A stretch of 54,720 nt of DNA from an uncultured Pelagibacteraceae bacterium (GTDB taxonomy: Bacteria; Pseudomonadota; Alphaproteobacteria; Pelagibacterales; Pelagibacteraceae): assembly GCA_902560855.1 (NCBI GenBank), contig CACENJ010000005.1:1-54720 (forward strand), written 5' to 3'. The position numbers were made by a program, and so were the translations under genes. How positions within the stretch are numbered: position 1 is the stretch's first letter; each line of letters begins with the position of its first letter. This document shows positions 45,004 to 46,920 of this stretch, one piece after another. Under the pieces are notes generated by a model, which had not been told where the DNA came from, did not search any database, and saw nothing but the letters and a program-made list of their open reading frames with translations.

Positions 45004-45558
45004 ATGAAAGAAGTAAGTTTCTTGCAAATGAAAGATGGAACTAAAGAAGATTACCTTTTATTAAATAAACATGAAAAAAAATTTATTGAGAATACTCCAG
45101 ATCGTTTAATAAAATTTATAAGTGGATTGACCAAAACTTTAGATGGCTATAAAATAAATAGACTGGAACATTCATTACAGACTGCCACTAGAGCTTTAAA
45201 TGACAAAGCTGATGATGAAATGATTGTAGCTGCTCTACTGCACGATATTGGAGACGAACTAGCTCCATTAAATCATGCAGAGTATGCTGCTGCAGTTATT
45301 AAACCTTATGTTACTGAAAAAACTCATTGGATAGTAGAAAAACATGGCGAATTTCAAATGTATTACTATGCCCATCACTTGGGAGGAAATAAAAATCAAA
45401 GAGATAAGTATAAAGGTCATAAATATTATCAAGATACTATAAATTTTTGTGAGAATTGGGATCAAAAATCTTTCGATCCCAATTTTAAATCATTGTCACT
45501 TAAAGAATTTGTGCCTTTTGTAAAAAAAATATTTTCTAGAAAACCGTATTCTAATTAG
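45004..45558 (+). CDS. HD-domain protein (COG4341 / PhnZ-like type)
   Basis: 184 aa metal-dependent HD-fold protein. RLEHSLQTATRAL (first His), AALLHDIGDELAPLNHAEYAA (HD and further ligands), VEKHGEFQMYYYAHHLGG (two more His), then KYYQDTINFCENWDQKSFDP. The conserved Gln after the first His and the extra ligands fit the group that includes the di-iron oxygenase PhnZ and uncharacterised 'predicted HD phosphohydrolases'. So it may be an oxygenase rather than a phosphohydrolase. Six bases after purF. Stop shares four bases (TTAG) with opposing bhmT. Confidence 0.75.
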   Translation: MKEVSFLQMKDGTKEDYLLLNKHEKKFIENTPDRLIKFISGLTKTLDGYKINRLEHSLQTATRALNDKADDEMIVAALLHDIGDELAPLNHAEYAAAVIKPYVTEKTHWIVEKHGEFQMYYYAHHLGGNKNQRDKYKGHKYYQDTINFCENWDQKSFDPNFKSLSLKEFVPFVKKIFSRKPYSN

Positions 45559-46613
45559 GCTTTGTTTCTATAATCTTTTATATGTTTTGGAATTCGTTTA
45601 TTTTTTCCAAACATATAATGATTTTCCATATTTTCTCTATATTTGCTAGCAGGAACTTTTAAACCAACTGCTTCAGCCGTTTCTCTGATCAACATTGGAT
45701 TTGCTCCACAACAAACCCCTAAATAATTTATTCCTAAACTATAAGCATCTCTTGCAAATTTTCCTATTTCATATCTACTGCATTGCATCGGATCTAAAGC
45801 TGTAGGAAATGTAGTTTCGTGAGGAGTGTGACAACTACATCCATTGTTATCTGGCAAATTAAAGAAAGTAGGATGATCGTTTGTTGTTCTATAAGTGATG
45901 GGTAGTCCCGCCATATGACACTTTAAAACTTTTCTAATCTCTTTAAGATAAGGAAGCATAGTATTGGGTCCTCTGTGACAATTCATTCCTACTACATCAC
46001 CTCCTCTTTGTTCTAACTCCTTACAGGTATCAAGAATTGAAACTCCATCTCTCATAATATTTTTACCATATGGAGCGATTGTAATAACAGACGGAAGTTT
46101 AGTTTCTTTCATCACTTTTAGAGCTGTGTAAGCTTCTTCAGCATAATAAAAAGTTTCACCAATTAAAATGTCTGCTCCTTCATCAACAGCCCATCCGACC
46201 ATTTCACGAAACATTTTTTCTACTTCTAATTGGGATTTTTTGTCATTTTGATTCCAAATGTTTGAGTTTGAAATGTTTCCAGCCATCAAGTTTTGTTCTT
46301 CTCCAATTGGGCTAATTGCAACATCTTTTGCAATTTGTAATGCTGCTCTGTTAAGAGGCTCTAATAATTCTTCCTTGCCAATAACACGCATTTTTTCTCT
46401 GTGTCCATTATAAGTAAATGCCTGAACAATGTCTGATCCTGCATGTTGAAAATCTCTGTGTAAATTTATTAATGCTTCAGGATTTTCCAGTGAAACCATC
46501 GGAACAAACTCACCAGAAGACATGTATCCTCTTTTTTCTATTTCAAAAAGAAAACCTTCTGCACATATAACTGGACCTTTATCTAGCCTCTCTATTAAAC
46601 TTCTTTTTTTCAT
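45555..46613 (-). CDS. bhmT: betaine-homocysteine S-methyltransferase-like enzyme
   Basis: 352 aa homocysteine methyltransferase barrel. LIERLDKGPVICAEGFLFEIEKRGYM, then zinc ligands in VVGMNCHRGPNT and YLGVCCGANPMLIRETAEA. Also ADILIGETFYYAEEA and the N-terminal AFTYNGHREKM. Transfers a methyl group from a betaine-type donor (glycine betaine, perhaps DMSP) to homocysteine, giving methionine without B12. A 300-base leader carries a SAM-II aptamer with terminator and a SAM-V aptamer that controls the ribosome-binding site, so SAM represses it at two levels. SD GGAG lies five bases before the ATG. Confidence 0.93.
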   Translation of the reverse strand: MKKRSLIERLDKGPVICAEGFLFEIEKRGYMSSGEFVPMVSLENPEALINLHRDFQHAGSDIVQAFTYNGHREKMRVIGKEELLEPLNRAALQIAKDVAISPIGEEQNLMAGNISNSNIWNQNDKKSQLEVEKMFREMVGWAVDEGADILIGETFYYAEEAYTALKVMKETKLPSVITIAPYGKNIMRDGVSILDTCKELEQRGGDVVGMNCHRGPNTMLPYLKEIRKVLKCHMAGLPITYRTTNDHPTFFNLPDNNGCSCHTPHETTFPTALDPMQCSRYEIGKFARDAYSLGINYLGVCCGANPMLIRETAEAVGLKVPASKYRENMENHYMFGKNKRIPKHIKDYRNKA

Positions 46614-46614
46614 A

Positions 46615-46643
46615 CTTTCTCCAAACTAATGGAGAAAAGAAGC
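46615..46643 (-). promoter_or_regulatory. SD-sequestering hairpin of the bhmT translational switch
   Basis: Minus strand: CTTTTCTCC (46639-46631) can pair with the bhmT Shine-Dalgarno region GGAGAAAG (46622-46615). The same CUCC strand can pair instead with GGAGAAAAGAGC (46682-46671), which directly follows the SAM-V core, over a longer stretch that takes in AAGC at 46643. The two pairings exclude each other. When SAM holds the aptamer's 3' end, the SD is masked. Confidence 0.75.
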
Positions 46644-46680
46644 TTTTTTAAACTTAGAGGAATAAACAAAGCTCTTTTCT

Positions 46681-46735
46681 CCTTTTTAGTGCTTTAGCTT
46701 TTGCTGGGTGCACAATATGGTTCAAATACCCGGTT
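46681..46735 (-). promoter_or_regulatory. SAM-V riboswitch aptamer
   Basis: The minus-strand leader of bhmT contains an H-type pseudoknot. P1 is GGGU (46731-46728) with ACCC (46709-46706). P2 is GUGC (46713-46710) with GCAC (46692-46689). The loop AUUUGAACCAUAUU and the 3' strand CUAAAAAGG (46689-46681) match the SAM-binding core shared by SAM-II and SAM-V. Position directly ahead of an SD-masking hairpin, downstream of a SAM-II aptamer, fits SAM-V as known from marine bacteria. Confidence 0.85.
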
Positions 46736-46754
46736 CTTAAATGAAAAATTATTC

Positions 46755-46783
46755 AAAAAAAAACCACCTGCTAAAGAGGTGGT
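46755..46783 (-). terminator. SAM-II-controlled intrinsic terminator
   Basis: Minus strand: ACCACCT (46783-46777), a seven-base loop, AGGTGGT (46769-46763), then a run of nine T (46763-46755). It is a textbook intrinsic terminator in the bhmT leader. Its loop and 3' arm, UUUAGCAGG (46775-46767), can pair with CCUGCUAAA (46809-46801) in the 3' part of the SAM-II aptamer, which then acts as antiterminator. Confidence 0.9.
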
Positions 46784-46796
46784 CCACATGGAAGCA

Positions 46797-46850
46797 TCTA
46801 TTTAGCAGGATTTATTATAGCGCCCCGCAAGTCGACATAAATCGGCGCTA
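46797..46850 (-). promoter_or_regulatory. SAM-II riboswitch aptamer
   Basis: Minus strand: P1 is UAGCGCC (46850-46844) with GGCGCUA (46824-46818), enclosing a loop that starts GAUUUA and ends ACUUGCGG. It is followed by AUAAUAAAUCCUGCUAAAUAG-type 3' sequence; GCGG in the loop can pair with CUGC there to close the pseudoknot. This follows the SAM-II plan (GAUUUA loop, UUGC, downstream AUAAAU and GCUAAA). The 3' strand doubles as antiterminator. The stretch 46851-46920 to the divergent EamA gene shows only A/T-rich sequence; promoters for both directions must lie there but I cannot place them with confidence. Confidence 0.82.
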
Positions 46851-46920
46851 ATTAAAAACTATCAAAAGATAAGTATAAAAACAATGATAAAAAATATATA
46901 TAAAAATAATATACTAAAAT

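Follow-up and report, generated by a model that had tools for sequence, protein, structure and literature searches.

How can two SAM-responsive elements, placed one after the other in a single leader, share the control of one gene? The question is raised by the bhmT leader of an uncultured Pelagibacteraceae bacterium, carried on the minus strand of the window (the whole stretch of 54,720 nucleotides that was analysed), where the first-pass annotation had placed two switches in series, SAM-II and then SAM-V; covariance models and the comparison with relatives agree with this description. The kind of arrangement is already known: a tandem SAM-II/SAM-V element upstream of bhmT has been published for 'Ca. 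Pelagibacter ubique' HTCC1062 (PMC2704228, PMC5069961, PMC11508383), so that the annotation was right in recalling such tandems from Pelagibacter-type bacteria (PMC2704228, PMC9481103, PMC11508383). A review reports 149 SAM-II/SAM-V tandems and 44 doublet SAM-II elements and states that in each of the first 120 tandems a terminator follows SAM-II and the access to the ribosome-binding site is under the control of SAM-V (PMC9481103). The HTCC1062 bhmT mRNA is reported to rise 34-fold in sulphur limitation (PMC5069961); its SAM-V element binds SAM as measured by calorimetry, selective SAM binding being reported for both the bhmT and the metY elements (PMC6061858), and the isolated SAM-II and SAM-V aptamers of homologues respond to SAM (PMC11508383, PMC6061858).

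The reading proposed here, to which a probability of about 0.84 is assigned, is that SAM-II gates transcription through a terminator while SAM-V gates translation through a three-strand switch. What is added to the known kind of tandem is the detail of the second gate, an indirect platform from which SAM-V reaches a distant ribosome-binding site; this platform is absent from the available parts of PMC2704228, PMC5069961, PMC6061858, PMC9481103 and PMC11508383 and from the results of literature searches, the original 2009 study aside.

Organization of the bhmT leader

The leader occupies positions 46850–46611 of the minus strand and contains, as read from the sequence, the SAM-II element, the antiterminator and terminator, the SAM-V element and the three-strand translational switch.

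46844–46850, minus strand: SAM-II P1, 5' strand, UAGCGCC (sequence and pair counts in 63 leaders)
46825–46829, minus strand: SAM-II P2 pseudoknot, 5' strand, UGCGG, within the P1 loop (core UGC/GC(U)A invariant in 63/63 rows; the two pairs beyond the core taken from the window sequence only)
46818–46824, minus strand: SAM-II P1, 3' strand, GGCGCUA (sequence and pair counts in 63 leaders)
46801–46809, minus strand: CCUGCUAAA, SAM-II P2 3' strand and antiterminator 5' strand (sequence, covariance model R1, alignment of 63 leaders)
46767–46775, minus strand: UUUAGCAGG, antiterminator 3' strand, inside the loop and 3' arm of the terminator (perfect 9-bp complement of CCUGCUAAA)
46755–46785, minus strand: intrinsic terminator (stem-loop 46785–46761, 9 pairs; U tract 46763–46755, nine T)
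46676–46740, minus strand: SAM-V aptamer, RF01826 (Rfam, 72 bits)
46681–46682, minus strand: GG, proposed trigger (partner by position: CC 46720–46719 in P2a, SAM-bound, or CC 46632–46631, free)
46668–46682, minus strand: strand 1, antisequestor 5' strand, GGAGAAAAGAGCUUU (duplex with the middle segment, -21.2 kcal/mol)
46631–46646, minus strand: strand 2, AAAGCUUCUUUUCUCC, partner of strand 1 or of the Shine-Dalgarno (duplex, block-complementarity and folding data)
46615–46622, minus strand: strand 3, the bhmT Shine-Dalgarno (SD), GGAGAAAG (sequence, block-complementarity and folding data)
46611–46613, minus strand: bhmT AUG (sequence)
45555–46613, minus strand: bhmT, 352 aa, homocysteine S-methyltransferase family (open reading frame; Pfam PF02574, E 2.7e-34)

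The naming of the gene as bhmT agrees with the Pfam match and with the HTCC1062 homologue (79% identical over 131 aa); the product scores 58.8 bits against the NCBIfam betaine-homocysteine S-methyltransferase model, under its cut-off of 338. The perfect complementarity of CCUGCUAAA and UUUAGCAGG and the nine-U tail, both claimed by the annotation, can be read directly. A terminator scan found one terminator in the leader against a mean of 0.2 in shuffled sequences, and a scan for sigma-70 promoters found none between 46560 and 46960 (mean of 1.6 in shuffles). The convergent neighbour (45004–45558) encodes a protein that carries an HD domain (Pfam HD, E 4e-5) and has a weak likeness, under the NCBIfam cut-offs, to phosphonate-degrading oxygenases.

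The HTCC1062 bhmT locus (its leader, L090, was identified by length and coordinates) carries the same gene and the same elements in the same order, including the antiterminator, a nine-U terminator, strands 1, 2 and 3 and a start codon 66 nt past the aptamer; the species and the sequence differ.

Identity of the two aptamers

The SAM-V aptamer is matched by RF01826 with 72 bits (E 6.9e-10), above the gathering cut-off of 41, in a full-length alignment with no non-standard pair, and the core UUUGAAC...AUUGUGC...GCACUAAAAAGGAG is present, together with a P2 bearing a bulged U. It is the only SAM-V match in the genome (a 75% complete assembly). The end of the aptamer lies 62 nt from the AUG and a second SD is found at 46622–46615, so that this SD is not immediately 3' of SAM-V; the gap has no bearing on membership of the class, since the HTCC1062 bhmT element, an accepted SAM-V, has 66 nt.

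The check with Rfam models suggested by the annotation, which held for SAM-V, gave no SAM-II match above the Rfam cut-offs: RF00521 scores 22.5 bits, under the gathering cut-off of 36, and a search of the window with RF01726 did not list the element at E up to 5. The gathering score does not separate members from non-members here, since the published HTCC1062 bhmT SAM-II, used as a control, also gives no Rfam SAM-II match (at E up to 0.1); likewise, a second SAM-II in the window's own genome, upstream of metX (L002, L205; G000:C6:37203-37269, minus strand), scores 35.5 against a cut-off of 44 and 24.4 against one of 36. The hallmarks of SAM-II are present in the window, namely P1, the GAUUU loop, the UUGC and GCUAAA core and the P2 pseudoknot. 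Indeed, a covariance model (R1) built from 29 tandem leaders, with HTCC1062 included and the window excluded, finds the SAM-II/terminator stretch at 46757–46860 with 80.9 bits (E 1.4e-16; E-values are rough), the runner-up in the window scoring 18.1 bits (E 0.059); in the underlying alignment, A3, the terminator is one column off in three rows (L089, L090, L103), and R1 was built on it nonetheless. Across the 75% complete genome the second R1 match is the metX SAM-II (42 bits), which has no SAM-V match beside it in a genome-wide Rfam search.

The order found, SAM-II with an intrinsic terminator first, SAM-V second and a methionine gene downstream, is that by which tandems are defined in PMC9481103, and the division of labour matches the bi-mechanism tandems described there, in which the first aptamer acts with a terminator and the second controls the ribosome-binding site. 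The metY leader of the same genome (L200, G000:C29, minus strand) has no SAM-V match and retains SAM-V-like pieces, TTTGAAC and, just 5' of the start codon, AAAAAAAAGGAG; it is perhaps a strongly diverged SAM-V.

The proposed first gate: antiterminator and terminator

In the mechanism proposed for the first gate, CCUGCUAAA would pair, as it emerges in the absence of SAM, with UUUAGCAGG and keep the terminator open; in the presence of SAM it would be locked in the SAM-II pseudoknot, the terminator would form and transcription would stop. The pairing is favoured among relatives: the duplexes of each SAM-II 3' strand with its own terminator average -12.9 kcal/mol against -10.6 for swapped partners, and none of 20000 permutations is as low, bearing in mind that relatedness among leaders inflates permutation tests (53 unique pairs, all those from 107 loci; 12 loci with a T run and no GC(T/A)AAA strand were omitted). 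Five of the 53 have weak antiterminators, above -7 kcal/mol (L053, L188, L190, L194 and also L153, which is probably no tandem), and were dropped before alignment A2, which holds 63 of 88 distinct tandem segments, the other 25 having been omitted by eye as similar.

In these 63 leaders 90.2% of the 755 cells of the 12-pair antiterminator are paired, as compared to at most 50.6% in slid controls, although the pair at columns 57/98 fails in 32/62 rows. Cells altered on both sides number 25 against 5.3 in shuffles (0/500 as high); the two measures least fooled by relatedness, pairs altered on both sides (3 against 2.3; 217/500 shuffles as high) and further pair types (8 against 6.8; 109/500), are not above chance. 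P1, the P2 core and the terminator together are paired in 98.1% of cells, with 3 pairs altered on both sides against 1.1 in shuffles (3/500 as high) and 9 pair types against 8.1 (53/500); the inner pair of P1 shows two-sided changes.

A base shared by the two states is also found. Columns 65/90 of the antiterminator pair in 63/63 rows (CG 49, AU 13, GU 1), and column 90 can pair with terminator column 98 in 48/63; the triads 65-90-98 read C-G-C in 31 rows, C-G-A in 15 (the window's triad), A-T-A in 13 (that of HTCC1062), C-G-T in 3 and G-T-A in 1. Such triads match the trace expected of mutually exclusive pairing, the rows being related and the events possibly few. Folding, with a model that includes neither pseudoknots nor triplexes, gives the same alternatives: the first half of the window's leader is predicted to form the antiterminator when free (-27.9 kcal/mol) and the terminator when CCUGCUAAA is blocked (-22.5), and blocking the corresponding strand leads to the terminator in 88/89 tandem sequences, while with the strand free at least five of the GCUAAA bases are paired in 65/89 and fewer than five in 24/89. 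Since the antiterminator, once completed, should according to the predictions outlive the aptamer, the decision is probably taken co-transcriptionally.

The SAM-II element of HTCC1062 in the full-length RNA

The isolated SAM-II domain of HTCC1062 is reported to respond to SAM, hardly doing so in the refolded 177-base full-length RNA; earlier in-line probing is said to agree, and oligonucleotides directed to the linker restore the response for a reason called not understood (PMC11508383). This observation bears on the first gate in two ways. On the one hand, it provides an argument for the strongest rival explanation, according to which SAM is sensed by SAM-V alone, the SAM-II domain being either a relic or a decoy and the level of read-through being fixed by the terminator. 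The predicted energies point in the same direction, the antiterminator being more stable than the terminator state both in the window (by the values given above) and in the 181-nt HTCC1062 leader (-48.5 against -36.9). A relic, however, is not expected to be so tightly constrained: the P2 core pairs are invariant in 63/63 leaders and the six pairs of P1 are kept in 99.5% of cells. Moreover, the isolated domain does answer SAM, and the GC(T/A)AAA strand and the terminator are kept in 37/38 direct and 37/37 indirect unique bhmT leaders (the two platforms are defined below). Altogether, a silent SAM-II seems improbable, with perhaps one chance in eight.

On the other hand, the same observation may be explained by the gate itself. 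The best predicted fold of the 181-nt HTCC1062 leader (pseudoknots not being modelled) includes an antiterminator of 12 bp in which the SAM-II P2 strand is engaged; this fold is 11.6 kcal/mol better than the strand-blocked one, and the antiterminator may account for the weak response of the refolded full-length RNA. Since it holds the P2 strand in the predicted fold, the reported inactivity is what would be expected of a co-transcriptional switch after refolding; a first gate operated by SAM-II would thus probably work only during transcription, if at all, given that the refolded RNA barely responds (PMC11508383). A word search of that paper returned neither 'terminator' nor 'antiterminator'.

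As for the oligonucleotides, the sites of all three lie 10 bases further on in the leader numbering used here than in that of the paper; with this offset strand 1 falls at 160 in the paper's numbering, strand 2 ends at 214 and the AUG is found at 233, which indicates that the 177-base construct is too short to reach strand 2, the SD or the AUG. The effect of oligonucleotides 2 and 3 would follow if they opened a hairpin reaching from the 3' arm of the terminator to just before SAM-V; this is only an idea, drawn from the predicted HTCC1062 fold, where the hairpin is present. Its counterpart in the window, a linker latch between the terminator GGUUU and the AAACC preceding SAM-V (46754–46732), is likewise kept as an idea only, the complementarity being no better than in shuffled linkers in most relatives (in only 5/80 duplexes do 10 or fewer of 200 shuffles reach as low an energy; mean z -0.51); ACC or GCC stands just before the aptamer GG in 57/80 tandem linkers.

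The second gate: a proposed three-strand translational switch

In the RNA that is read through, strand 1, which starts with the last bases of SAM-V, would pair in the absence of SAM with strand 2 and leave the distant SD free; in the presence of SAM, the GG heading strand 1 would be pulled into P2a, the short helix proposed to form at the 3' end of SAM-V upon SAM binding (PMC6061858), strand 2 would move to the SD and the bhmT start would be shut. The annotation had claimed that the 3' GGAGAAAAGAGC strand of SAM-V (which starts at 46682) and the SD compete for one strand, of which CUUUUCUCC ends at 46631, and duplex energies, covariation and folding in relatives support it.

The tests were carried out on 35 unique leaders of the indirect platform (defined below) that are shorter than 90 nt, from 41 unique ones (47 in all); alignment A1, in which strand 1 is misaligned, was not used for counts. 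Both pairings are better with their own partners than in any of 20000 permutations, strand 1 with the middle segment giving -21.2 against -16.8 for swapped partners and strand 3 giving -12.35 against -11.0. All 100 dinucleotide shuffles are beaten by strand 1 in 29/35 leaders and by strand 3 in only 5/35. In the window, the strand 1 duplex (-21.2 kcal/mol against a shuffle mean of -11.3) is matched by none of 100 shuffles of the middle segment, and the SD duplex by 8 of 100, so that the SD pairing of the window taken alone is weak evidence. Strand 2 is complementary to the two SD-like strands at 304/315 and 277/315 block positions, in most of the 35 leaders, and at position 7 of the blocks both of its partners covary with it (A-T-A in 18 leaders, G-C-G in 9, others in 8). 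In the folding model, blocking the GG at 46682–46681 alone lowers the predicted unpaired fraction of the window's SD from 0.88 to 0.06 and, in the 35 leaders, the mean from 0.63 to 0.09, with exceptions in HTCC1062, which falls only to 0.38, and L139 (0.88 to 0.83). When the nine strand 1 bases are blocked the SD shifts by less than 0.2 in 8/35 leaders, mostly because it is already closed.

The metY SAM-V, whose structure is known (PDB 6FZ0), belongs to the same aptamer family by covariance model, and in the window CC and GG are likewise placed for P2a; in the metY model, however, the SD adjoins the 3' end of the aptamer and its occlusion is direct (PMC6061858), whereas here it begins about 60 nt off and access to it would depend on a third strand. 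In its available parts, the description of tandems in PMC9481103 gives no account of a second aptamer reaching a distant ribosome-binding site.

It could be argued that direct occlusion is the whole of the second gate, the GGAG at 46682 being itself a ribosome-binding site, perhaps for a UUG frame coupled in translation to bhmT. A GGAG does stand at the end of the aptamer, the position it has in metY, the bhmT AUG is overlapped by a UUG frame (46669–46610; 19 codons plus stop), and some relatives, HTCC1062 included, have an AUG at a similar place; yet a separate, strong SD is present in the window at 46622–46615, most of the 35 leaders show complementarity of strand 2 to both SD-like strands and the start codon of the frame is not, by eye, kept in all relatives, all of which makes this explanation highly improbable. 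As a conserved feature the frame was rejected, a matching start being AUG in L030, L056, L060, L061, L090 and L103 and AUA in L016 and L017 (by eye). Equally hard to sustain is the proposal that the antisequestor is a plain stabilising hairpin with no regulatory role, since, even if a stem of A/G-rich and U/C-rich strands scores well by composition (swapped partners reach -16.8) and strand 3 seldom beats every shuffle, both pairings prefer their own partners, strand 2 shows the double change at one position and the stem is placed exactly at the 3' end of SAM-V.

Sub-threshold Rfam matches within 46575–46714 (plastid psbA, ES222, mir-3202 and others), all under gathering, were discarded; they probably reflect the long hairpin.

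Direct and indirect platforms

Relatives were gathered as the best 80 of 298 bhmT loci from named genomes; as 80 SAM-V loci, namely all 61 matches outside the window from a search giving 62 matches in 101 genomes and 19 more hand-picked among the matches listed (three of the four in genome G126 and 16 others); and as 30 further loci from 49 listed matches, some duplicating earlier ones. One locus, L052, was dropped since no start codon was found. The platform was called from the distance between aptamer core and start codon (below 40 direct, 40–99 indirect, at least 100 long), structure not being used, and SAM-II from the presence of both a T run and a GC(T/A)AAA strand. In the direct platform only a few bases separate the GGAG of the aptamer itself from the start codon; in the indirect one the start codon is 61–73 nt past the aptamer in the leaders used, with the three-strand element between.

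The unique bhmT leaders in which a SAM-V core was recognised number 78, of which 38 belong to the direct platform, 37 to the indirect one and 3 have a longer insert; metY leaders are direct in 61 of 63 cases (2 long) and mmuM leaders in 18/18. Not included in these counts are 17 bhmT loci with no recognised SAM-V core, some of which may be diverged SAM-V leaders, and three leaders whose genes are unnamed. By pattern, SAM-II and a terminator precede nearly all bhmT leaders of either platform, in the proportions given above, and only 16/63 metY leaders.

On a tree of 86 BhmT proteins (a quick search with SH-aLRT support only, 28 of 78 inner branches being weak) parsimony requires ten changes between direct and indirect, six or seven being forced by branches with good support. 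Both platforms occur among the closest relatives of the window, L010 having the direct one and L011 the indirect one. Either conversion of the platform is easy, or leaders are transferred from one gene to another.

Two metY leaders from another genus (L169, L181) have, by eye, the three-strand element followed by a short AUG frame overlapping the metY start out-of-frame, and their metY may be reached by coupled translation. In L068, L086, L192 and L195–L197 the distance from the SAM-V GGAG to the gene start is about 130–145 nt; several of them have a frame of about 40 codons right after the GGAG (by eye), and a remote stretch close to the gene is able to pair with strand 1.

Implications for SAR11 bacteria

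From the leader anatomy, its conservation and the covariation within it, which are directly observed, together with the behaviour reported for homologues, we infer that both switches act in the same direction, high SAM closing each of them, and that the first operates co-transcriptionally. A fuller account may be offered, for which the odds appear about even. In it, SAM-V would have a second, indirect platform, also used in HTCC1062 bhmT, in which two G's drawn into P2a shift a pyrimidine strand from the antisequestor to a start about 60 nt off; the linker would inactivate SAM-II because the antiterminator captures the P2 strand, a state perhaps locked by the later hairpin between the terminator GGUUU and the bases just before SAM-V; SAM-II would be a one-shot co-transcriptional gate and SAM-V a lasting one; and direct and indirect platforms would have been swapped repeatedly.

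A concrete and testable reading is thus offered for the puzzle of why a well-formed SAM-II barely responds to SAM within the full-length tandem. SAR11 bacteria are plentiful in the sea and possess few regulators, and the way in which they gate methionine synthesis is for this reason of general interest.
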